In this document: positions 14,701-30,384 of the stretch, piece by piece
How the letters are laid out: each line of letters opens with the position of its first letter
How positions within the stretch are numbered: position 1 is the stretch's first letter
Assembly: GCA_003024175.1 (NCBI GenBank)
Contig: MDYQ01000288.1
Span: forward strand, 1-30,384
Source of the DNA: Planoprotostelium fungivorum
Lineage: Eukaryota; Evosea; Variosea; Cavosteliida; Cavosteliaceae
Length of the DNA stretch: 30,384 nt
Direction: 5' to 3'
Program-made: the position numbers and the translations under genes
Notes under the pieces: model-generated
The model's input: the letters and a program-made list of their open reading frames with translations, nothing else
Told to the model about the DNA's origin: nothing
The model's database searches: none

Positions 14701-17700
14701 CTGAGCTCTTGTCTTCAAAGAAAGAAACAAGTGAAAAGCCAGCGAGTGAGGATGTTCTGTCTGTACACTCTGATAGATCGAAGATCTGCTTCTCTTCATG
14801 AATGTGAAGACTACGAGGTTTCTGTTATCGATATTGGGAGAGCAGACCGTGTTGACGTCTCATCAGGTGTGATTTGATAGATGATTGCCATCCATTGACC
14901 ATCCATCGCATCGATTGACGAAGGAGCAGGAGAAGATCTGGATCGATCTGATCCATTCGTTTCAATCTTCAAGGGATGAATTCATTGCAGAGGGTACATC
15001 TGAACGCAACTTTTACTGGACATTGCAGGCTTTACAGAAGATCATGATAGAAACGGTGAAAGTATTACATGTGATACTCGATTCACAGAGACTACAGAAG
15101 ATCTATCCTCAGCTGGCTACAGTGTTTCCCATTGTCGATACACTGCACGATTCTCTCATTCAGCTGATATCATCCGCCAATCATTCACCTCGATGCCTCT
15201 TCTCACTCCTGATCATCATTCGTATCGGCATATTGGAACGAGACTTTAACGATTTCTACGTGGCTGATCGCTGCAGAAGATTGAGAGAGATCTTGAACGC
15301 CTCACGCCTCGACATCGAGCTGAAGATCTCGTGAGAATCATTCCATTCCATCTACTCTATCGTAGGATTTCCTCTCATTCATCGATTGAAATTGATTCAA
15401 TCTGCCAGTCGATTAGAACACAATTCACGAGACGGTACAACCGTCTATCACACTTATCAAGATCTCATCCTCTTCTTCCGTCACGTGGTGAAGAACGAAA
15501 GAATGAAGAAGCCAATGGAGGACATGTGTTCAGATATCTTGGAACGATGTGTGGAGCAGTGGAAGGAAGAGGACATCACGTACGCTCAATTTGTGACGAG
15601 TCTGATGGGTGGTCACATCACTCACCCTTATCGTTCGGCAAAGTAGAATCATTCATCATGTCCTTCCTGACGCACCATCAGATTATACACTCGAAGATTT
15701 CACGAGAGATATGCCACGAAGACGGGTTACATCCAATCCATAGAAAAGGTCGAATCGAAGGGAAAGCTGTTGGACCAATTCATCACCACAGGTGGGCACA
15801 TCGTACCAAGCCGAGAAGTGGTTTTCCACACCGACATCGCAGTGAGAGAAAGAGAAGAGAGAAACAAGCTCACGATGATTCAGAAGTCGTACAGATGCGA
15901 TGGAGAGATGTTCAGACGAGTTGGACTGTCTCTGATGAAGATCATTCATCGTTACTTGGCCCTCTCTGAGAGGCAATTGATGGAAGGAAGGCTGTTCATC
16001 TCCACCATTCGCTGTGTACGATCTCATCTGGAGTCGGTGGGTGGTGAGGTCACCTTCACCGTCTTACGACAAGCCTTCGATCAATTGGGGCAAGGTGAGA
16101 GGATCTACTTTGGACATCATGAATGAACTCCACAGAATTCGGAGTGGCCTTATTGAACTACGCTATGAGTACGATGGAGACACCCAGTGTGTTCGCATCG
16201 GACGAAGCTCATTCGGTTCATCTGATCACTCGCTCTTACATCTCACTCTGCGATTCCACCCAACTGCCTGGAAGAAACCTATCACTTGAGCCTACATCAA
16301 GTCCACCTCCTGAGCCGGAGTGAGTCTTAATTCCATCGTTGTTGAATGGATTGAATCTTTTACAGCAAGGAGAAGGGGCGTCGTTCCATCGATCGATTCA
16401 TAGAAGACCTACGACAATCGAAAGCAGGTGGTGACCGCGTCGGTAGTTCAGCATTCCGGTCGAGATATTGCAGCTTTTCAAGAGACAACCGTCCTCACAC
16501 GTGGAACATACCAATCAGTGAGGTCAATGCACTCTGCGGTGCTGAGATCTATGGCTTTAATGGAGAAGACTACGGAGAATGTCATCGAATCGTGGGGACT
16601 GCTCAATTCGATGAGAATTCGGTGGATATCATGATCTTGTCCCTGGATCGCACGAATGGTTCATTCTCTGTGAGGTTCCTCTACGACTGTGATGTGAGAT
16701 ACCTCACCTTCGTTTCGACTGATGACCTCAGATGGTTGGAGCAGTGGGATTTTATGAATGCGTGAACACGGATCAAATATTAGCCAAGAAGAAGCAGGGT
16801 CTTCTGATGCCTCCGGAGATCGTCAAGAGAGAGGTGGATGAACACACGGAGAATTTGGGAAGACACGCTGCGAGGTCCATCATGTATTCTATCATCGCCT
16901 TTGCCTTCGAAGATGAGAACGTCAATCGATTGATCGCATTCCCTCTGTTTTACGAAAAGGTGATCATGTGAGAAGGAGAGGATGTAATGTGATGAACAGA
17001 TGAGAGAGGAGATCATTCCATTGATGAGGCTGTACAGCAATTCGATCATCAAATTACCTGTGTTTTCGGTGGCCTTGGGAGTGCATTCGTCGGACAAATT
17101 ATCTACCACCTATTGCTCGGATTCCTTCCAATTTCCGTGGGAGTTTTCACTCATTCATTCCTCCTCTCACCTTCGTTGACTCTCTTTCATCTTATATTCT
17201 TCAGTGAAACAATGACTGTGGGCAGAGGCTTTCGGGGTATCCTCTCGACCATGTTATCTCAAGAGAAGTTCAAGTGAGTGTTCATGAATGTGAACTGTGA
17301 TACCATGTAGAGAGAAGCTCCTCCACGATGTGTGTGATGCCATCGAGGGAGATGCAGAGATACCACCTCTACATATCTTTGAGGACGATTACCTGATGAC
17401 TTTCCCTTCCAAGGTGATAGAGAGGATGAGAGAAGGCTAACGTAGGAATAGGATCTCTATGATGAACACTACGAGATCAGCGTGCCTTGGTGTGATGAGA
17501 TCGCTCTAAGACATTTGAATTTCTCGTGAGATTTCACGTTACGTACCTCACTGACATCATTAGTTATGCGTGGTATCTGATCGAGATCGTCTTCCGGGGA
17601 GATGTGCTTCTCTTCTCTGATTTTTTACGATTTACTGTTACGCTGGAGAGTTTCTTTCAATACGAACGACCTCATTTTCCATCTGTCATCTCTTGGCTGA

Positions 17701-20601
17701 CGAAGATCTACGAACATCAAAAGAAGGTAAGACGTGCAAAGGAAGACAAAAGACACCTCTGACTCATCTTTCAGACACCAGGCATGGGTGATGATCATCA
17801 GTTGTGGTCAGTAAGATGCCAGAAGATCCTCACTCCACCTTGGCTGAGTGCATACCGAGACATTCGTCACCCAGCCATGATGTTATTCGCACGATTAGCC
17901 TATACCATCGGTCCGCAGCACATGAGGTGAAGAGAATGAGGATCTATGGTTGAACTCCTCAGATTGGGCGGTGATTTCATGTTTGCCGTTCACCTGTTAG
18001 GACTACTCGTTTACTTTGAGGAGAATACGATGGAGAAGTGGATCGAATCCCCCGCGATGAACGCACATCATCTGTATCATGATGTCACAGAGATCAGATT
18101 GGATCCCATCACTAGGATGCTCCGTTTTCAAGTCCACTTCTCATCGAGAATCGAACTGTCGTGGGTCAAGAGAACCAAGATCGAGATGATTTATGTATGG
18201 CATTTAATGGATGGACTCGACTGATTCCATCAAGGATGAATGTATGGATGAGAGTAGACAGAGTGCTCACATCGATTTGAACAAGGGAAGTATCCAAGCG
18301 GTCGATGCCAAAACGATCATCATCACCAGGAATGATAGTGATGACATCAACTCTCCCATACAGTGTAGTATCAGGCCTGAAACCGAAACGTGAGTCATAC
18401 CATCGAACTCGACTCAACGTTCGAAAGGAATGAGATGCAACTCGCGTTGAGTTTGTTGAAGAATTCGGAGAGCCCACTGTTTCAGCCTGAGGATGATGAG
18501 AAGATGCAGACCAAGTGAGAGAATGTGTTCATTCTCATCTCATAATGTTCAGGGAGCAGAGACGACTACTCGGTAGTTTGCATGTTCAAGCCAGGAAGTA
18601 TGCTTGGAAGCAGCTCTTCGAGGTATTGAATGAGATGTGGTTTTATTTCGCTCGCCCCGACGATCATCCGTATCTGGCTGTCGTTTCCGCAGAAGAAAAT
18701 CCATTCAAAAGGGTGATCACTTCTCCTTCATCTTCACACGACATTTCAAATTGAAGATGGAACAGATCGAGAAGATTATTCAGAGACAGCCATCGACTGC
18801 GATGATCATCATGAGAGGCATGAAGAGGAACATCTTGAAAGAACTGAGGGTGAGAGAAAGATCTACACCGTATGTTCACATCGACAGCCCTTCGAAGGCC
18901 GTGGAGCTGCTCGAGAAGATGAAATCGAGAACGAAGAGAATCAGCCCCAGATTTCCTTTGAAATCGACCGAGGAGCGATGAGAGGTAAAGAGAGAAGGAG
19001 ACGTGACATTGAAGAACATCAGGGGATTCTCTCTTCAATCAGTTGATGTTCAGCCACGATCGAGAGGTGGAATTCGAGTACGATGGTTTCTCCAGGCCAT
19101 TCAGAATCAAATTCTTGGGAGAGGGATCGATCGATCAGGGTGGACCATTCTGCGAGCTGATGACAGGTGATGTAGATCTATGTGTGTGTGCTGAGATCGA
19201 TATGTAGCCGTAGCGACAGAGATTCAATCGGAGGAGCTTTCATTGTTCGTCCCCTGTCCAAATTCTGTCAATGAGGTCAGAGCTATTTTAGGAATCGTAC
19301 ATGCGGTTTTAGGGTTTAACGATGGAGACCAGGTGGGAGAGAATAGAGAGAAGAACGTACCCTCCACGAGAAGAATAGCACGCGGTGTGTGGCGATTCAT
19401 CGGTAATCTGATGGTACGTTTGATTCAAATCGCTCTCATCGACAATCCACAGGGATACGCCTATAATCACAGTCTCAGTCTCCCTCTCGAATTAGCCTCT
19501 CTCGTGTGGAAGAAGATCGTGTGCGAAGAGGTGAAGGGAGAAGAGAAGAGGATATTGAACGACTCAGGTCGATCGACTTGATTTGAGAGACATCGATATC
19601 AATGGTTATCACATTCTCGAATCGATCGAGAACATAGGTGGAACCATCTCATCACACATCATCACGTTCGAATGGAGATTGATGTGGAATAGATCGAGAA
19701 GGAGTGAACGATGATGAGACGTTTCAGAAGGTGATGGGTGGGATGACTTTCACGACGGTAGATCACGAGGGACAAGAAGTGAATCTCGTCAAGAATGGTA
19801 ATCACAAGCCAGTCACGTGAGAGGAATGATTCGATGACACGCATTCATATGGAGATAGATTCGAGAATCGAAGAGAATACTGTAAGGCCTTAGAGCAGTA
19901 TCACCACCTCAAGTACGACGATGCGATCGATGAGATGAGGAGAGGATTTCACCAGACAGGCCTCTGTCTTGCATCCATCAAACTCAGATGGTTCCACATC
20001 GAGAAGAAGTGAATCTCTTCTACATCTCTTTCTCACTGAATATCAGGATCTGTGGAGAACGACTCATATCTGTCGATCGAATTCAGGTGAGAGTTCATCA
20101 GAATCATTTCCACTGACATTATCAGGCGATCACAGAAGTGAAGATTCACGATGATATGGCAGACATGTTTTGGGATGTGGTGAGAGATCCACACTTCTTG
20201 TTGTTCACTCTCAGTAGCTGAGATCGATGAACAATGATGAACTGACACAATTCCTTCGTTTCACATCGGGGAGATCGAGGTGAGACGTCGTTGTGGTTCA
20301 CGATGGATAAACTGTACAGGCTACCGATAGCTGACCACTGGAGACTTCACCTCAACTCATTCGAAATCGAAGGGAATCCCGATGAATACCTCCCCGTCTC
20401 ACGTATCCTACCCCTACTACCTTTCATTCATTTGATTCACATCGATCGATTGTCCTTGACACTGAAGATACTTGTACGAACACACTGGACCTCCCTGTGT
20501 ACTCGAGCAGACAAGTGATGAAGGAGAAGTTATTATACGCGATACACAACTGCCACAGTATTGATACGGACTTCAACATCAACGCAGGGGCAGAGGTATA
20601 A
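11778..20601 (+). CDS. HECT-A: giant HECT E3 ubiquitin ligase, HERC1/HECTD4-type HECT domain
   Basis: Accepts ubiquitin from an E2 on a catalytic Cys and passes it to substrates. Traced exons: 11778-11812, 11865-11942, 11992-12093, 12132-12256, 12332-12421, 12470-12570, 12610-12744, 12784-13059, 13098-13367, 13408-13641, 13680-13849, 13889-14279, 14313-14745, 14784-14866, 14924-15330, 15409-15642, 15682-16094, 16136-16319; the rest continues in the same style to 20320-20402 and 20468-20601. The protein is roughly 2,300-2,450 residues (my estimate). The long N-terminal part is helical, has no named domain I can assign, and contains a poly-Glu linker. The C-terminal HECT domain (about 18.5-20.6 kb) has [83 protein letters not shown] and the active site LPVSHTC, then [11 protein letters not shown] and IDTDFN. 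These blocks match HERC1/HERC2/HECTD3/HECTD4-type HECT domains better than NEDD4-type ones. The domain looks intact. Confidence 0.88.
13940..14150 (+). repeat. Purine-only low-complexity stretch encoding a poly-Glu linker in HECT-A
   Basis: About 200 bp of almost pure G/A on the plus strand (GAAGAAGAAGGAGAAAGAG-like repeats) in exon 12 of HECT-A. It encodes a Glu/Gly/Arg-rich acidic linker between two conserved helical segments. It stays in frame. Minus-strand Ser/Phe-rich frames across it are shadows. Confidence 0.85.
19276..19332 (+). other. HECT-A intron holding an interstitial telomere-like 11-mer
   Basis: Intron of 57 bp between ...PNSVNE and GENREKN of the HECT domain; copy B has an intron at the same point. 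It contains TTTAGGGTTTA at 19308-19318, one and a half units of this chromosome's own telomere repeat. The intron is a multiple of three with no stop, so retention would add 19 residues without breaking the frame. Confidence 0.6.
20403..20467 (+). other. U12-type-like intron before the HECT-A catalytic Cys
   Basis: The 65-bp intron starts GTATCCTA, matching the U12 donor consensus RTATCCTTT in its first seven bases. TCCTTGAC at 20453-20460 matches the U12 branch consensus TTCCTTRAY, with branch A at 20459. It ends in AAG. It splits the His codon of SHTC (phase 1). The flanking exon 20320-20402 is 83 nt, the same as in copy B. Confidence 0.65.
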
Positions 20602-20689: not shown

Positions 20690-23600
20690 ATGCCTCCATC
20701 TACAACAGAGGGGTCAATCTGTCGGGTTCTAATCGCACGACACATGAGGTATGTTCAATGTGAACATCTGGAAGTTGAACAGATTCACAGTGCAGATACT
20801 CTCCTATTTAGGATCGGAGATGAACCTGCCCTCTTTACAAAATATGGTGAAAACCATCAACTATCAGGTCGATTCAAATGGAGCAATGGAAGGTGATGTT
20901 AAATTCAGTTCTTCATTTTGACGAAGTCAGGATTTCTCTCTTAGACGGAATCCCAGGCCGTTGGTTCCCAGCAGAGATCCCGGTCAACATCGTCACATCA
21001 TTAAACCATAAAGAGGTGGTGATCTTCTTGCGAGATATGTTACAAGATCTCTCAAAGACGTGAGTCACGAGGAACATGCAACCCGATCGAATCATCACAG
21101 GTTGGAATCCGGACAATCGTCCGAAAGGTATCTGGAAATTCGCAAGAGGCTCTCAGTGTGGCAAACAGAGGAATCTTCCGAACACAATTTGTCTCACTTG
21201 GATGTCTTCTGCTCCCTGATCGGTAACCTTCACACTCTCATCTGGCTCGATTGTTCATCGTCGCAGACATCATGGAGTCCAGATTGTCCGAGATCGAATC
21301 TACCATCCTCAGGACACACATCGACATAGACAGTGACACGTACTGTCCGATCTATGTTCGCGTTGAGATTCTCAGCCTTCTGTTGAAAGAGGATGTACCC
21401 CCTCAAGTTAGAGCGAAATCAGCTTCCGCTCTCATCGCTTCTCATCTATTGATGTTCTGGTGCTCTGTGCATGAGAGATACACAGAGCAATATGGCAGAG
21501 TGAGTGTCCTCTGATCATCAGTGTCTGATCGCTCGACAGATCATCGACGAGTTGATGAAACGCATCGAGGGGGAGAAGAAGGGGGAAGAAGATCCATCAT
21601 ACGATAGGATGAGGAGAGACGTGGACACGATGAGAATCTTCTGGGGTCAATCCATCGACAGCGAGAGATGCGTGAGATGTCGATCATTTTCATCGATGAT
21701 TTAATTCTATCTAGGACGTAGAATCGATTCTTCTTGCATTTGTACTCAAGAGAGACACGAATGGGGCCGTCCCTCACTTCATTTCGTACCTGGATAGATG
21801 TACTCATCTCACTCTGGGTGACATCAAGGCGAGAAGCATCGGTACACAGACGAAGAGGATGGGAAACATGATCTTACATGTCGTGCAAACATTTGGACGA
21901 ATCTGTCTCGGGGTGAAGAAGGCAATGTTATCTTCTGTCGTATCGATCATTCGAGGTGCGGTAGAGGTGAGGGGTGGGCGTAGAGAGAATCGTTTGATTA
22001 TCTGCAGTGTCTTGGAGGCAATCGATTTCCTTCCATCAATGAACAATTTACGCTGCTTGAGATCTTGTATGTATCATCACTGAGAGCTTCACTTTATTAT
22101 TTTATTGATGCTTCGGAGAATGGTGATGATCATGTCCTATTCGGTTCATGTATTTACATCATCGAATCGATATATCAACAATTTCCACTCATTCGATAGC
22201 AGATGAGTTGAACCAAATCACCTCGCTCTCGTCTCGTCTCATCGATCAGATGCCTCTGATTCTCAATAAAGAGATGAAAGACGTTCGGGATGGACATACT
22301 GATGAAGAAGGAGACGGACCCAGTTTGATTCTTCTCATCCATCGATTGTCCAGCCTTCGTTTATTCCGGGTGAGTGGATATCTCGTCGGTTGATATTGAT
22401 TCAATTCACCATAGAATTACATGGATGGAATCAGAGAGCCCAACAACCAAACGGATTTGGCGAGCCTCTATCGTTTGGGAGAGAACGCTTCAGTGATGAA
22501 GGAGGAGGAGGAATTGTTTCTACAACAGCTGAGCAAGCCTGAAGCAGGAAAGCCCACAGAAGTTCCATCCATCGCCCTTCATTCTATGTTGAGGAAGAAT
22601 CGAGCCATGGGTGGTGCAGAGCTCGATGTCATCGATCGCAATTGTATCTCCATCATGCTTCAGGTAATGTCCTCATCATAGAGAAAAGGGTATTGAATGA
22701 AACAGGGGTGTGGTGTGGTAGGAGAGGCGGTGAATTATGGAAAGACTCTGTTACAGAACACCGCGAGACACGATGCAGTACCTCCCAGAGTGGAGCACAT
22801 CTGGAAGATGGCTGATCGTTACAAGACTCATCTGTTGCAGAGACGACAACAGTTGAAATCTGAAGGCAACTTACAAGGGTGAGACGTTATTTGAATGATG
22901 TCTAGAGATCATTCACTCATCTTAACAGGATTGAGGACATGATGAAGAGATGTTTGGAATCATTCGATTTTTTACGATCGAAATTGAAGAAGAATGAGAC
23001 ACACGAGAAGGCAATCACTAGCACCACAGAGTCAGCACCATCTCGCCCGGAAGAAAAGAAACCACTCAAGAGAACGATGACAGACTTTGATCCACGTACC
23101 GTGAAGAAGATGAAATCCATACAAGTCCATCACGAACTAAAGAGGACATCTCACAGCACTGTGTTACCCAAAAGGCCAAGCGAAGAGAGAGAGAAGACAA
23201 AGAGCACCATCATGAAGAGAACAGGCTCCGTCTTTTCATCCGTACAGAGGTGGAAGAAGATGACGACAGACAGTCTCAAAGAAGATGAGTCACCGATGCA
23301 GGTGACATTTCATCGAAATATGGCGTGATGAAGCGTACAGTACGGCACGGTGACGGAAGAAGACACGGAAGTGACAGATACCATACTAAGGTATCTTCTC
23401 AACCCGAAAGATAATCTCTCGATCGAACAAGAGCTGGAGAATTGGAACGCATCGTTGATAGAGAGAGTGAACAACTACAATGGATTAGAAGAATTATTGA
23501 GGAGGGAAAAATTGGACTCGACTCTGAGTTTGATTCTTGAGGAAGAGGACTACAAACTGACCACAAAGAGACCCAAGCAAGGTGAAGATGCATTAAGATT

Positions 23601-26600
23601 TGTTGCAATCGTATGGGCATCTGAGATGCGCAGTACCAAAGAGAGAACAAGAGGCAAGGGACAGATTGAGTCGGACCTTACTACACATCATGAATGCCAA
23701 AACCAATGAATTGACACTGCGATACAAAGCTTATGGTTGCCACATGGAATTCTTCTCAGGAGAGGATAGGGACGTGCTCCTTCGTTATGACTCTGTGAGA
23801 ACGATGGAAGAAACAGAGGAACCAGGTGATCTCTCCACCAAATTGTGATCTGATCTCACCGAAACAGATGTCATCCTATTCATGAAGATTCAGACCATCA
23901 AGATGGCACTCAAATTGGAGGGAGAACATCCTTCATCGATTCAAGTGATTATCTCAACGCATTCCTTCATCTCTCTGTCCATCTCCATTACCAACAGATC
24001 CATTCATATTGAATCGTGATACAGAGGGAAGCGTGGGAGGCTCTTATGAAAGAGTACGAGAAGAGATGGAAGGAATACAGTCAAATGGTAGACGAGGAAG
24101 AGATGAGATACGAGGGAAAGACGGAAGAACAGAGGAAAGAAGAGATGATAGAGAAGAGACTCTTCTGGCTTTGCGATGCCATCCAAGACATCGTACAGAA
24201 CACCGTGAGATGCGAAGATGTCACAACACATCGTGACGAGTCATCAGATAATCAGTTCAACTCTGGTTCAATCTTCATCGAAAACGATTCACGATAGTCT
24301 ACTTCAACTAGTACGTCTTTCTTGTCACTCTCCTCGCTGCATGTATTCACTCTTGTACACTCTGCGAGTGGCAATCGTAGACAGAGGCCTCGATGTATAT
24401 TACACCTCAGACAACTGTCAACCATTACGAGACATCATCTCTGCATCGATCGACATCATCTCTCTACAATTGAATGATCGGTGAAGGGTCAATCGAAAGT
24501 GAATCTGACGTATCACAGAAACGGAAAGCTCATCAACGATGCAACCTCTCGATATCACTTGTTTCAAGACATCGTCGTTTTCTTTCGTGGAGTCATGTTG
24601 TCACTTCAAGTGAAGGAGAAGGTCGATCGACTGTTTGAGGATATCATGAGGAGGTGCACGGAGGAATGGAGAGAAGAAGACATCGCTGCCGCTCACCTGG
24701 TGACCAGTGTGATGATGGGAAATATCACATGTCTGTATCGCTCGAGCAGGTGAGGCAGCATGAAACGAATCGATGATGAATTAGAACAGTGTAATGTTGG
24801 CGGAATTCTACGGGGGAGAATTCAAGAGGGATATAGTGAAGGAGATCACCGGGAATCACCAGCATAACCTTCAATTCAACGATGGTACTATAACTTCGAT
24901 TGATCGTTACAAAGTGACAGCCTATCTCCCAGTGAGTCGACATTCTACCTCTATATCAACAGGATGCATCGTTGACTCATTCTCCCTCAGATCAGCTATT
25001 CATACGATGCCAATCTGTTCACCAAAATTGGTTTGTACATGATGAAAATCTTACATCGATATATGGAGAGAGATAAGAACGCCATGGAGAGCAGACTCCT
25101 CATCACGACCATTCGATCCATTCGCTCTCACTTTGAACGATTAGATGGTGACATCGTCTTCTCTGTTCTGCAGCAAGCGTTCGATTCTCTGGGAGAAGGT
25201 GATAGTCTCACGTTTTCACTTTAACAAGATGCAGAGTTTGGAGTGAAATGGTTGGAATCGAGTCTGAAACTCATCAAAACACCCACCGTTTACCAGTCAG
25301 ACGAAGAATTCTGCCTCAAGATCGCTTTGGGGCATCTTTTATCCCTCTCCGATTCTTCTCATCTCTCCGCGTGCCTTCAATTCACTCCACCTCCATCTCA
25401 GTACGCTCGTCACGATGTAGATATCCTCTCACACGATTTAGGAAGAGAACACAAGATAGAGTCGTGGAAGAATTCTTATCTCAGGTGAAGACAGAAGAGG
25501 AGACGGTGTCATTCGATGACAAATACATACGACCACCCGTACCCATCCCACACACGTGGAGATGGACCGATCGGGAAGACAAGAACATCATTGGTGCCTT
25601 CTCAGACGATTCAAGTCATCGAGTTCTCTCCACGAATACATCAACCTATCGTTCGTGGTATCTGGACCGTACAACGGGTGTATCTCATTACGCAACAGGG
25701 GAGGTGAGACTATGAAGTTGAATGAACGCTAAATCCACGTACAGTTGGACAGATTTATTGGACGGTATGATATCTTCAATGACGATCAGGCCATCGAGAA
25801 GACACCTCACGGTCTGTTGAGAGACATGGAAGACGATATGAAACAGATTTCACAACACACTGAGAATCTGTGCATTCTGGCATTGAGAGGCATCATTCAT
25901 TCCATCATGTCACACGCTGTGAATGATGAGAACGATCTGTCTCGATTTCCTTCTTTCTTCGCAAAGGTGACAAATGAGATGAGAGAGTGTTGATGATAAG
26001 CAGATGAAAGATAGCCTGATCCAGAGGATGAGACTGTACGGCAATTCTACGATCAATTTACCTATGTTCTCAGTCAAATTATTTGAGAGAGAAACGTTCA
26101 TCAGCCATCTCGAGAGCGCATACAGCTCTGATGTTTTGGAATTCATGTGAGACTTTTCCGCACAATTGCTTTGGTTAAAACTGTACCAGAGGCGTGGATA
26201 AAGTGGGCAAGGGTTTCCACAAGATGATCTCCCGCATCACCTCTACTGATGATATGTTCATGTGAGTACAATTTGGCATCATCACGGTGACGTACCATAG
26301 GCAGCGATGGATCGATGACTTGTGTGATGCACTACAATGTGATCCACCCACCCCAGCATATGTCGAGGAGAATCATTACATCTATACTTTTCCATCAAAA
26401 GTGAGGACTTGATTCAACCAGTAGCAGTAAAATGATGGAGAACAGAGATTGGAAACCGCACAAAAAGTAGAATCAACAGCTGCAACTGAACTCACCATTC
26501 CATGGTGTGACGAGATCGCTTTACGTCACATGAATTTCTCGTGAGTTGCCGAGTTACGTACGGTGGTTGAAAGCCATAGGTACGTCTGGTTTGTCTTTGA

Positions 26601-29600
26601 ATCTGTATACCAGGGAGACTTTCACCCATTTTCAAAATCTACGAGATTGACAGAATGCCTGGAAAAATGGTTTACATCCAAATCGGAGAGGCCGCACATC
26701 TATCCAGTGATCAAATGGTTAACTTGCATCTATGGCATTCAGAAGGTGAGCATGAAGATCGAACACATCTGATGTGTTATCATAGAAATCCCTCGATGTC
26801 AGTGAGGAAGTGTGGGAAGAGAGGAAGAGGATGATCATAGACATCCCATGGATGGACGAAGAGAAAGACATGCGCGATGCGAGACACCCCGGCCTGATGT
26901 TGTACTCACGATTGGCCCTGACGATCTCTCCTTCCATCAAATTTGAGCAGTGAGTCTTCCTTTCATCGTAACTCATCTGAGTGAATCAGGTACGGCGCGT
27001 TACATGCAACGAAACTGTTGAGGGTGTTGGATTATTTTGAAGACGGCACGGCCGAGGGATGGGCGAATGTATTCTACGGCAAGTTTGTCTATCCCACAAG
27101 TGAGGAGATCTACCTCGATCCATCGTCTCGGGAGTACCACATCGACATCATCTCGAGCATCGAAGTCGAAATCGAGTGGACGGTTTCCACTCGCATCACC
27201 ATCATCTACGTGAGTTGCTCGATATCGATGGGATGTGACATCACGTGTAGGAAGAAGGGAAAATCGATTTACATCCGAATCAATCCGGTCGCATGACTGT
27301 GATCCGTCCGAAACGCATCGAGTTTCGAAGAGATGCAAATCAATCGGAGGCAGATATCGAATCGCCCATCACTTGCAATTTCAGTAGGTTCAGTAGGCTG
27401 TCTTCCGCGCCCCTGTGAGTTCAGATCATCATGATCGCATCGAGATACAACTGTCGCGGGTTGATTGACACAATGTGCAGAACGATAGAACAGACCGTGG
27501 AGGAACTGAAGGGAATGAACGAGATCACACTCGAAATAGATGAGAAGATGCAAATGAAATCATACAACGGGTGAGACGAATATCTTGAATGAAATCAAAT
27601 GATGGATCTGAGGATGAAATAGGAAGGTGATGAGAGGGTGTAAGAATTCCCTTCAGGTGATTTGTGCGAGACACCGAGCATGGCGTCGACTCTTCTCTTG
27701 CATCCGCTCCCTCTGGTTTTTCTTTGCAAATTCTGATCCACATCCATATCTAGCCGTCATACCTGATCGAGAGAATGTGTTCAAGAGGGTAAGTAGACAT
27801 CAAAAGAGACATCGTGAATCCATCGCATCACAGACAATGTATATCGACTGACGAGCGATAGGTGGAGAAATTACTCTACAGACAACCCAATAGAGCTCTG
27901 CAGGAATTTATGCAGCTCAACATTCACTTGCGATGGAGAGAGGACGAGGTGATGGAAGATTGTGGATCGATTCAACTGAAGAGAGGAGGTGGAAGCGGAA
28001 TACACGACCGAATCAGACGCGGAGGATGAGTATGAAGAAGCTGGTTATGACATGCCCATTGATCGAAGGATCACTCACGGTACATCGTATGACCAATGAG
28101 AATGTTCATCTTCAGCAGAGAAGTCTCTGTTGGATCAGATGGCAGAAATACCTTTAGTGTGTCATTACAGTGATAGAGTCAGACCGTTCAAAGTTATTTT
28201 CGTGGGAGAGGGATCGATTGATCAGGGAGGGCCTTTCAACGAATTGATGACAGGTGAGAATTGATCCAATGTGTAGCCAATCTGTCTGTCATCATAAACG
28301 GAAGACCATGAATTGCTGATATGAAACAGGAGTGAGTGAAGAGATGCAATCGACCCAATATCCAGTGTTTGTACCCTGCCCTAATGCTGTCAATGAGGTA
28401 ACGTGAAGATATCATCACAATATCGACTGAAACAGGTGGGAGAGAATAGAGAGAAATATGTGCCCAATGTAGAAGAAACAACTCACTGGAATGTCATTGG
28501 CAAGATTATGGTCCGTCAACTATTCTCCTGTTATAGTGCTGAACATGACAGGGCTACGCCTACAACCACAGTCTCAGTCTTCCTTTTGAATTCCCCCCTC
28601 TTGTATGGAAGAAATTAGTTGGCTCAGAGGTGGAATAATGATGGAACTCATTGATGGTGATCTGAATTGTTGCAGGTAGATCGAAATGATTTGAAGGCAA
28701 TTGATGTGATATGTTACCAGAACATTGAGATGATTGAAAATATCCGTGAGATATCCATATCAGTGCCCAATGAGATGACATCAGACAGAGACACAAGGAG
28801 TGATCAATGATGAGATGTTTCAAGAGGCTGTGGGAAGCTTGACTTTCACCACCATTGATTGTAATGGAAAAGAGGTGGAAGTGGTGAAAGGAGGCAGAGA
28901 TAGGAAAGTCACGTGAGTGTGAAGGAGTCCTATATGTGGACTGAGAGGTGCAGATGGGATAATCGAAAAGAATATTGTAAAGCAGTGGAAACCTATCACT
29001 TATCACAGTATGACAAGGCACTCCTCCCAATGAAAGAGAATTTCTATTGGACAGCCAAATGTCACACTGGCATCAGAATCAGATGGGATGCTGTAGAGAG
29101 AAGGTATGCTCTCATCCATCATCACAGAGTCAAACTCTTGAACTGATCACGGCAGAATCTGTGGAGAGAGGACAATTTCAGTTGATCTATTGAAAGTGAT
29201 GATGCAATCAAGATTAGCAGCAACTAATGAATGCAGGAGAACACACAAACAGAAGTGGATGAGAGGGTGGAGAATATGTTTTGGGATGTGGTGAGTTGTT
29301 GTGTGTACCATTGATCTCACACAATTAGATGGGATCACTGAGTAATGATCAACTGATCCTATTCCTACGCTTCACGTGGGGTAGATCCAGGTGAATATAT
29401 ATCAGTGACAACGTGTGACATTGATAGGCTGCCAACCACTGGTGGATGGGTATTCACAATTTCACCTCTCTGTGTAGACAGTGACCCTGACAGCTATCTC
29501 CCTGCATCTCGTATCCTTTTCTGTCCCCTTGATTTCTCTTCTTGAATCTTTAATTCTGATCATACACCTGTTTCAACACATTAGATCTACCTAGCTATTC

Positions 29601-29694
29601 TGAAAAATCAATCATGAAGGAAAAACTGCTGTATGCAATTTGTCACTGTAGGACTATTGACACTGACTTCAATGTCAATGAAAATGATGGATAA
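20690..29694 (+). CDS. HECT-B: tandem paralogue of HECT-A, giant HECT E3 ubiquitin ligase
   Basis: Starts [13 protein letters not shown]; after a 42-bp intron (GTATGT..CACAG) it reads [15 protein letters not shown], aligning with ELLRIGDEPTIF of copy A. Homology continues throughout: [20 protein letters not shown] (A: LLHSTLRGKRSMGGSGLDLI), [50 protein letters not shown] and the HECT blocks [77 protein letters not shown] and [11 protein letters not shown]. Intron positions are shared at several places. The linker that is poly-Glu in A is basic here (KKPLKRT, RTVKKMK). An acidic stretch ([18 protein letters not shown]) precedes the HECT core. The catalytic TCF lies just after an unusual intron, so activity depends on its splicing. 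The full exon list was not completed; no disabling frameshift or stop was found in the parts I checked. Confidence 0.85.
29511..29563 (+). other. U12-type-like intron with a non-AG acceptor at the HECT-B active site
   Basis: The donor GTATCCTTTT is a full match to the U12 consensus. ATCTTTAAT (29546-29554) resembles the U12 branch motif, with branch A at 29553. To rebuild [11 protein letters not shown] the next exon must start at 29564, making the intron end in CAT, 10 nt after the branch. The only AG nearby is at 29583-29584. Using it stays in frame but drops seven codons, including the catalytic Cys. Confidence 0.6.
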
Positions 29695-29968
29695 TAAGTC
29701 AATGCAATCAAAGCAATGAGGATAAACAGAGAAAAGGACAATCATCATCTAATTGCTGCATGCTACCAGAAATTTGCTCAAAATTGTGTAAAAAAACACC
29801 ATTTGTTATTTGGCCCAATCACCACAACCTACCATCAGATGACCCTAACAAAGTCAACAATGAAGAACCAAAGTTTCTTGTTCTACTACCATCAATTTTT
29901 CAAATTGACAAAAGATTGATTCATCATATTTGTTAGGACAGAAGCACTGTTCAAAAACTAGACATGTT
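29695..29968. other. AT-rich non-coding region after HECT-B
   Basis: Noticeably more A/T-rich than the rest of the window. No AATAAA follows the HECT-B stop; AATAAG overlaps it (GGATAATAAG). A 67-codon frame at 29716-29919 has no features of a real protein. Confidence 0.5.
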
Positions 29969-30120: not shown

Positions 30121-30199
30121 AAGGGTGGTGGCTAAGAGGCAGGAATTATACGCAACATTTTCTAAATCGCATTTTGGTCTCTTAACACTATAGGATGAT
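30121..30199. repeat. Direct repeat R2 (79 bp)
   Basis: Second copy of R1. Its last nine bases (TAGGATGAT) are also the first bases of the large inverted repeat that follows, so the two repeat families overlap and probably share one mobile origin. Confidence 0.95.
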
Positions 30200-30384
30200 G
30201 CATTATGCTCTGAAAGTACTCTATGTGCTGTTGGATTGATTTTTTTAAAAGTTTTTTGGTACTCATGGTGATGATTTTTATAAAAAGCTAAACAGCAGGA
30301 GCGATACCAAGAGTACCACAAAACTTTTCAAAAAATCAATCCAACAGCACATAGAGTACTTTCAGAGCACAATGCATCATCCTA
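30191..30384. mobile_element. Foldback (inverted-repeat) element at the window edge
   Basis: Left arm 30191-30268 and right arm 30307-30384 are inverted copies of 78 bp with about four mismatches, both starting TAGGATGATGCATT when read inward. The 38-bp loop contains TTTTTATAAAAA. The loop region 30262-30302 is also inverted relative to 30081-30121 (GCTTCTGCTGTTCAGC..), so an older nested copy flanks it. The structure resembles a foldback or MITE-type non-autonomous transposon. No transposase is encoded, and the right edge coincides with the window end, so the true boundary is unknown. Confidence 0.6.

Follow-up and report, generated by a model that had tools for sequence, protein, structure and literature searches.

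A minor-spliceosome intron with GT-AT ends probably preserves the catalytic cysteine of a HECT gene in Planoprotostelium fungivorum

Introduction

The HECT-B gene of Planoprotostelium fungivorum raises the question of whether splicing decides if a HECT E3 receives its catalytic cysteine. The window, by which we mean the whole stretch of DNA analysed, comprises positions 1-30384 of contig C246 in an assembly of 36.86 Mb and 471 contigs; the organism may be Protostelium aurantium, which NCBI lists as Planoprotostelium fungivorum. The window carries a tandem pair of HECT genes, copy A at ~13.4-20.6 kb and copy B, here called HECT-B, at 22.5-29.7 kb. Two codons 5' of the catalytic Cys of HECT-B, a His codon is interrupted by an intron (29511-29563) that ends in AT, and the first AG lies further downstream. 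An earlier note on this DNA had proposed that the choice between these two ends yields either an active E3 or an inactive, possibly dominant-negative pseudo-E3. The present analysis argues instead that the AT end is probably the one in use and that it keeps the Cys.

Results

The HECT-B gene and its active-site intron

Homology comparison pairs the exons of the two copies one by one, with 26-78% identity (mostly 35-75%) in the aligned pieces. The HECT-B model covers the C-terminal ~1760 codons with 37 introns, the N-terminal start lying outside it, and the modelled part of copy A has 33 introns. Ends other than GT-AG occur in one of the 33 introns of A and in two of the 37 of B, among them 29511-29563. 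No internal stop is present over the ~1760 codons of the HECT-B model, in which stop avoidance is built in, and in A and B alike ~7 kb of modelled frame passes with no forced frame break. Two more introns labelled 'U12' by the automatic model, 17237-17295 in A and 25421-25533 in B, account for the other departures from GT-AG and were disbelieved; the stretches concerned align poorly. Past the 3' end of HECT-B, at the end of the window, a 79-nt inverted repeat (30191-30269 and 30306-30384, 95% complementary) is accompanied by a direct repeat of 91 nt (29969 and 30121), and together they look like a repeat element. Elsewhere in the window, runs of HDHHLTL and IITSLF in overlapping frames at 2541-2801 point to a tandem repeat, flanked by frames that presumably resemble methylmalonyl-CoA mutase.

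When 29510 is joined to 29564, the product matches Pfam PF00632 with 189 bits and its catalytic Cys aligns with those of E6AP and HECTD3. The closest solved structure to the HECT domain of HECT-B is HECTD3 (E 5.3e-40); compared over this domain, HECT-B and human HECTD3 (PDB 9r85) share the C-terminal IDTD motif and a Cys at the aligned place. Given this join, HECT-B has the hallmark of a HECT E3, the domain with its catalytic Cys, and may be an active ligase. The coordinates of the region are collected in Table 1.

Table 1. Features of the HECT-B active-site region and the corresponding intron of copy A, in window positions
Feature	Position	Strand	Basis or remark
HECT-B gene, modelled part	22496..29694	+	Exon-by-exon homology to copy A and gene model
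Exon preceding the intron	29428..29510	+	Ends at phase 1 of a His codon (...YLPAS H); frame as in copy A
U12-type intron, GT-AT ends, 53 nt	29511..29563	+	Donor and position common to paralogs; no internal AG
Minor-spliceosome 5' splice site GTATCCTTT	29511..29519	+	9/9 to consensus RTATCCTTT
Most probable branch motif, ATCTTTAAT (branch A at 29553)	29546..29554	+	7/9 to TTCCTTRAY
AT acceptor	29562..29563	+	10 nt from branch A 29553 (9 nt past motif); paralogs have AG here
Last exon	29564..29694	+	Begins (H), ends at stop TAA
Catalytic Cys codon TGT	29569..29571	+	Aligned with Cys of E6AP (1c4z) and HECTD3 (9r85)
First AG downstream	29583..29584	+	21 nt past 29563; in frame; use would remove TCFNTLD
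Copy A intron, same position, U12-type, GT-AG, 65 nt	20403..20467	+	Homologous position, gene model

From 29511 the sequence of B reads GTATCCTTTTCTGTCCCCTTGATTTCTCTTCTTGAATCTTTAATTCTGATCAT, then AC ACC TGT TTC AAC ACA TTA GAT (H T C F N T L D). The possible joins were translated. The 29510/29564 join gives SHTCFNTLD and the whole C-lobe, and it requires an intron ending in CAT, in line with the AT end given in the earlier note; joining 29510 to 29585 gives SHLPSYS and loses TCFNTLD, and translation bore out that the AG at 29584 is reached in frame at the cost of the active Cys. Use of the AC end (29510/29566, GT-AC) loses the frame, and GT-AC pairing is described as disfavoured in minor introns (PMC3584512, section 4). 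Retention of the intron leads to a premature stop. No AG occurs anywhere within its 53 nt. A junction shifted by 2 nt (29512/29566) would define an AT-AC intron (ATCC...CATAC) encoding SRTCFNTLD, with frame and Cys kept and a proper AC end. However, such a shift cuts 2 nt within the consensus donor and loses the His that spans this junction in the related genes A, C259 and C154, and its probability is negligible.

The donor matches all nine positions of the minor-spliceosome consensus (taken from PMC8199999), so the 53-bp intron and its perfect U12-type donor stand as first described. The branch motif, called good in that description, is better termed fair: it matches 7 of 9 positions and is one of three that do so, the others being CCCCTTGAT at 29525 and TTCTTGAAT at 29539. 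When the intron body is shuffled, 8.5% of the shuffled sequences also contain a 7/9 match suitably spaced from the acceptor. What makes the HECT-B intron more than chance is the placing of its donor at a position common to paralogs. Past the likeliest branch motif, TCTTTAAT, the AT lies at 9 nt, the AC (29565) at 11 nt and the AG (29584) at 30 nt. Measured from the other two candidates the AT lies at 16 or 30 nt, beyond a range of 5-10 nt, and the short branch-to-acceptor distance holds only with 29553 as the branch. The ends of the intron are GT-AT, so the canonical GT-AG or AT-AC feature is absent.

HECT paralogs at the same intron position

Pfam HECT matches define 16 C-lobes in the genome, the near-copies on C173 and C377 being counted once, and the active-site region of all 16 was read by eye in translated frames. 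In four of them, A, B, C259 and C154, an intron interrupts the His codon after its first base. In copy A the intron reads GTATCCTACC...TCCTTGACACTGAAG/AT with the boundary TGAAG/AT ACT TGT, the ordinary AAG at the same codon position that the earlier note had reported. C259 (L120) has a U12-type intron of 125 nt (GTATCCC...TTTCCTTGACGATAGAAAG/AC, boundary GAAAG/AC ACT TGC), and C154 (L122) a U2-type intron of 39 nt (GTGAGCC...CTGACACATGCAG/AC, boundary TGCAG/AC ACA TGC). All three are of the same phase and encode the His across the junction, and in each of them an AG ends precisely at the position that T occupies in B. Judged from these sequences, the simplest history would leave the boundary of B at 29563/29564 and change only the last intron base, G to T. 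A tree of ten HECT C-lobes was also built; all seven inner branches are open and its pieces were hand-joined, so it carries no claim, and the G to T history is beyond its power.

The region is uninterrupted in 10 of the 16 C-lobes. On C174 (L003) and C414 (L119) a U2-looking intron lies within the catalytic Cys codon itself (TG/GT...AG/T TTC AA). The shared His position holds a U2-type intron in C154 and a U12-type intron in A, B and C259, which amounts to a change of type or an independent gain.

Both the branch and the acceptor of B are weaker than those of A and C259. This could reflect a real damaging mutation, the intron being poorly spliced or mostly retained and copy B losing function or being kept low, and introns with non-canonical ends are reported often to splice less efficiently (PMC3584512, section 4). 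Decay of this kind sits poorly with the perfect donor and with ~1760 codons and 37 introns free of internal stops, even though the model avoids stops, and we regard it as unlikely. The presence of G at the corresponding base in all three intron-bearing paralogs would equally be expected if the true base at 29563, or that of another allele, were G and the intron an ordinary GT-AG minor intron. Searching the assembly for a second copy with 29300-29700 returned the locus itself only, a search that is no proof of absence, and the assembly thus gives no second reading of 29563. On the other side, the unbroken frames modelled in A and B speak against a base error, and the branch of B is off consensus too, as expected of real drift. 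An error or allele at this base seems to us quite unlikely.

Minor spliceosome and minor-intron-like sites of the genome

The same assembly contains genes for U12 (E 6e-12), U6atac (2e-12) and U11 (6e-12) RNAs, all above the Rfam cut-off, and the branch-pairing stretch of U12, UGAGUAAGGAAAAUAA, agrees with the Rfam consensus. No U4atac gene was found: a search of the assembly gave two weak matches below cut-off, and the one of them examined further, L018, scores as U4 (88.9 bits). The sole U6atac gene above cut-off (L002 1501-1623; G000:C4:75292-75414, minus strand) carries UGAAgCCGAGAGAAGG in place of the UGAA.AGGAGAGAAGG of the Rfam consensus. This stretch of U6atac pairs with UCCUU of the donor, and the donors of the genome are still RTATCCTTT despite the altered stretch. 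Another place with GAGAGAAGGTTGGCA is found on C192.

Minor-intron-like sites were surveyed genome-wide with the pattern TATCCTT-N18-48-CCTTRAC, which gave 105 matches against 25 for the reversed pattern used as control. From the 100 of these 105 places that were listed, 90 sites were cut out and 10 dropped as repeats of matched letters. The base before TATCCTT is G in 45 of the 90, A in 36, T in 6 and C in 3. Distances were counted to the first AG (or AC) ending at least 5 nt past the branch Y. An AG ends 5-10 nt past this base in 44 of the 45 GT sites, compared to 16 of 45 at control distances of 35-40, and an AC does so in 34 of the 36 AT sites, compared to 15 of 36. These counts indicate that the genome has minor sites of both the G type and the A type, with acceptors held within a narrow distance of the branch. 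Among the GT sites the modal branch-to-AG distance is 9 nt (19/45), and in none of the 45 does the first AG lie beyond 18 nt. Scoring the acceptors by frame proved too weak to pick one per site, and the distance counts alone were retained.

An AT falls within 5-10 nt in 21 of the 45 GT sites and is thus common by chance; its presence alone says little, and the weight of the argument falls on the lack of an AG and the comparison with the paralogs. The sample is limited to perfect CCTTRAC branches, so it may not describe introns with weak branches. A second pattern, built on the branch of HECT-B (GTATCCTT-N17-47-CTTTRAY), gave 11 matches, HECT-B included, against two for its reversal, and an AG is in range at 8 of the 10 others. 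Altogether 52 of the 55 GT sites read have an AG in range, and no further GT-AT minor intron was confirmed among them; the three with no AG at 5-10 nt (L049, L114 and L118) have branch-like motifs, but none of them was confirmed as an intron. The share of AT-starting sites in the survey, 36 of the 81 GT-or-AT sites (L019-L108) in a sample chosen by pattern, exceeds the human AT-AC share of 24% given in PMC8280824. For Protostelium aurantium, 265 minor introns are reported in PMC10639083.

Permitted ends and the downstream AG

Canonical ends are usual for minor introns and do not define them, the donor and branch sequences being what does so (PMC3584512, section 4). According to PMC4176328, a U12 intron with a 5' G splices to a 3' G or T, G being preferred. 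GT-AT is among the ends listed for human G-type minor introns in PMC8280824, and GU-AU appears as one of the rare minor-intron ends in PMC8199999. The optimum distance from branch to acceptor is placed at 11-13 nt in section 4 of PMC3584512. Set beside these published ends and distances, the AT of HECT-B is an allowed ending, located where an acceptor would be expected.

The 21 nt that use of the AG would remove have diverged in the manner of protein-coding sequence. Over their seven codons B and A have three identical, three synonymous and one changed; B compared with C259, and likewise with C154, has two identical, three synonymous and two changed. The C-terminal piece scores 74 bits against Pfam HECT with the seven codons and 38 without them. 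Divergence of this sort suggests long coding use of the 21 nt, their codons having probably served through most of the period after duplication; the pattern is silent on present use, and the change to AT could be too recent for it to bear on.

Use of both ends, 29563 (AT) and 29584 (AG), would give an active E3 together with a Cys-less, possibly dominant-negative form. Beyond the in-frame AG, whose spacing arises by chance one time in three, such a switch has little support. Canonical neighbours are often found next to non-canonical splice sites of human and fly (PMC4176328 and PMC4528330), and Table 3 of PMC4528330, which does not label the introns as U12, gives a similar alternative splice for all 14 annotated GT-AT introns of the fly. 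However, PMC4528330 also names U12 introns as exceptions to this pattern of nearby alternatives. The likeliest branch A is separated from the AG at 29584 by 31 nt and the other branch candidates by 38-52 nt; past the likeliest branch motif this AG lies at 30 nt, a distance at which the first AG is seen in 0 of the 45 GT sites, compared to the modal 9 nt of the AT. A weak hairpin in the predicted fold (29558-29561 and 29563-29564 with 29582-29587) would shorten the path to this AG, but it would pair the AG itself. Folding of 29511-29610 is moreover not unusual (z 0.61), 151 of 200 shuffles folding at least as well. The proposal that splicing decides between an active E3 and a pseudo-E3 is therefore not supported: AT is an allowed ending and, from the likeliest branch, falls at the modal distance, the AG lies at 30 nt, the paralogs share the boundary and the 21 nt look coding. 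We consider such a switch very unlikely.

Discussion

Observed directly are the sequence, the common position and boundary of the intron, the genes for three minor-spliceosome RNAs, the acceptor distances in this genome and the coding-like divergence of the 21 nt. The choice of branch, splicing at the AT junction and the efficiency of that splicing are inferred. The conserved boundary is probably the one in use, minor splicing at GT-AT ends keeping the Cys of HECT-B and only the last intron base having changed. The U11/U12 particle would bind the strong donor GTATCCTTT together with, in all likelihood, the branch TCTTTAAT, after which 29510 would be joined to 29564 by the minor spliceosome. 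The resulting mRNA would encode the complete S-H-T-C-F-N-T-L-D and thus an intact HECT-B, with the splicing efficiency of the GT-AT intron probably somewhat lowered. Among the rival explanations that remain, decay of copy B comes first, a base error or allele second and the switch third.

A lowered efficiency might also be put to use. Output of HECT-B could be tuned by a deliberately weak minor acceptor: the abundance or condition of the minor spliceosome would then set the amount of Cys-complete HECT-B, the rest being retained or made Cys-less through the AG at 29584; we hold this to be highly improbable. The HECT-B intron is close to GT-AG U12-type introns of the G subtype, with which it shares the donor, the position and phase of the paralogs, the distance from the likeliest branch and a host with U11, U12 and U6atac. 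It differs from them in its last base, T instead of G, and in its 7/9 branch. With the GT-AT minor introns reported from human and from mutational work (PMC8280824, PMC4176328 and PMC8199999) it has the terminal dinucleotides and the U12 donor in common; unlike them, it lies in a HECT gene of a protist-like genome, and its splicing is predicted from sequence. Full-text literature searches on GT-AT and minor introns listed no report of this intron, which is weak evidence that it is new. GT-AT minor introns are a rare known kind, of which the HECT-B intron is likely a new example in a HECT gene.

One genome here offers a natural experiment at a single HECT position, which holds a U12 intron with GT-AG ends in A and C259, a U12 intron with GT-AT ends in B and a U2 intron with GT-AG ends in C154. 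The 12 other HECT C-lobes have no intron there, and two of them have one a few bases on, in the Cys codon. As a caution, the lack of an AG next to an active site does not by itself imply an inactive isoform. The locus bears on how far the minor spliceosome tolerates change at the last intron base and on the drift of minor introns.
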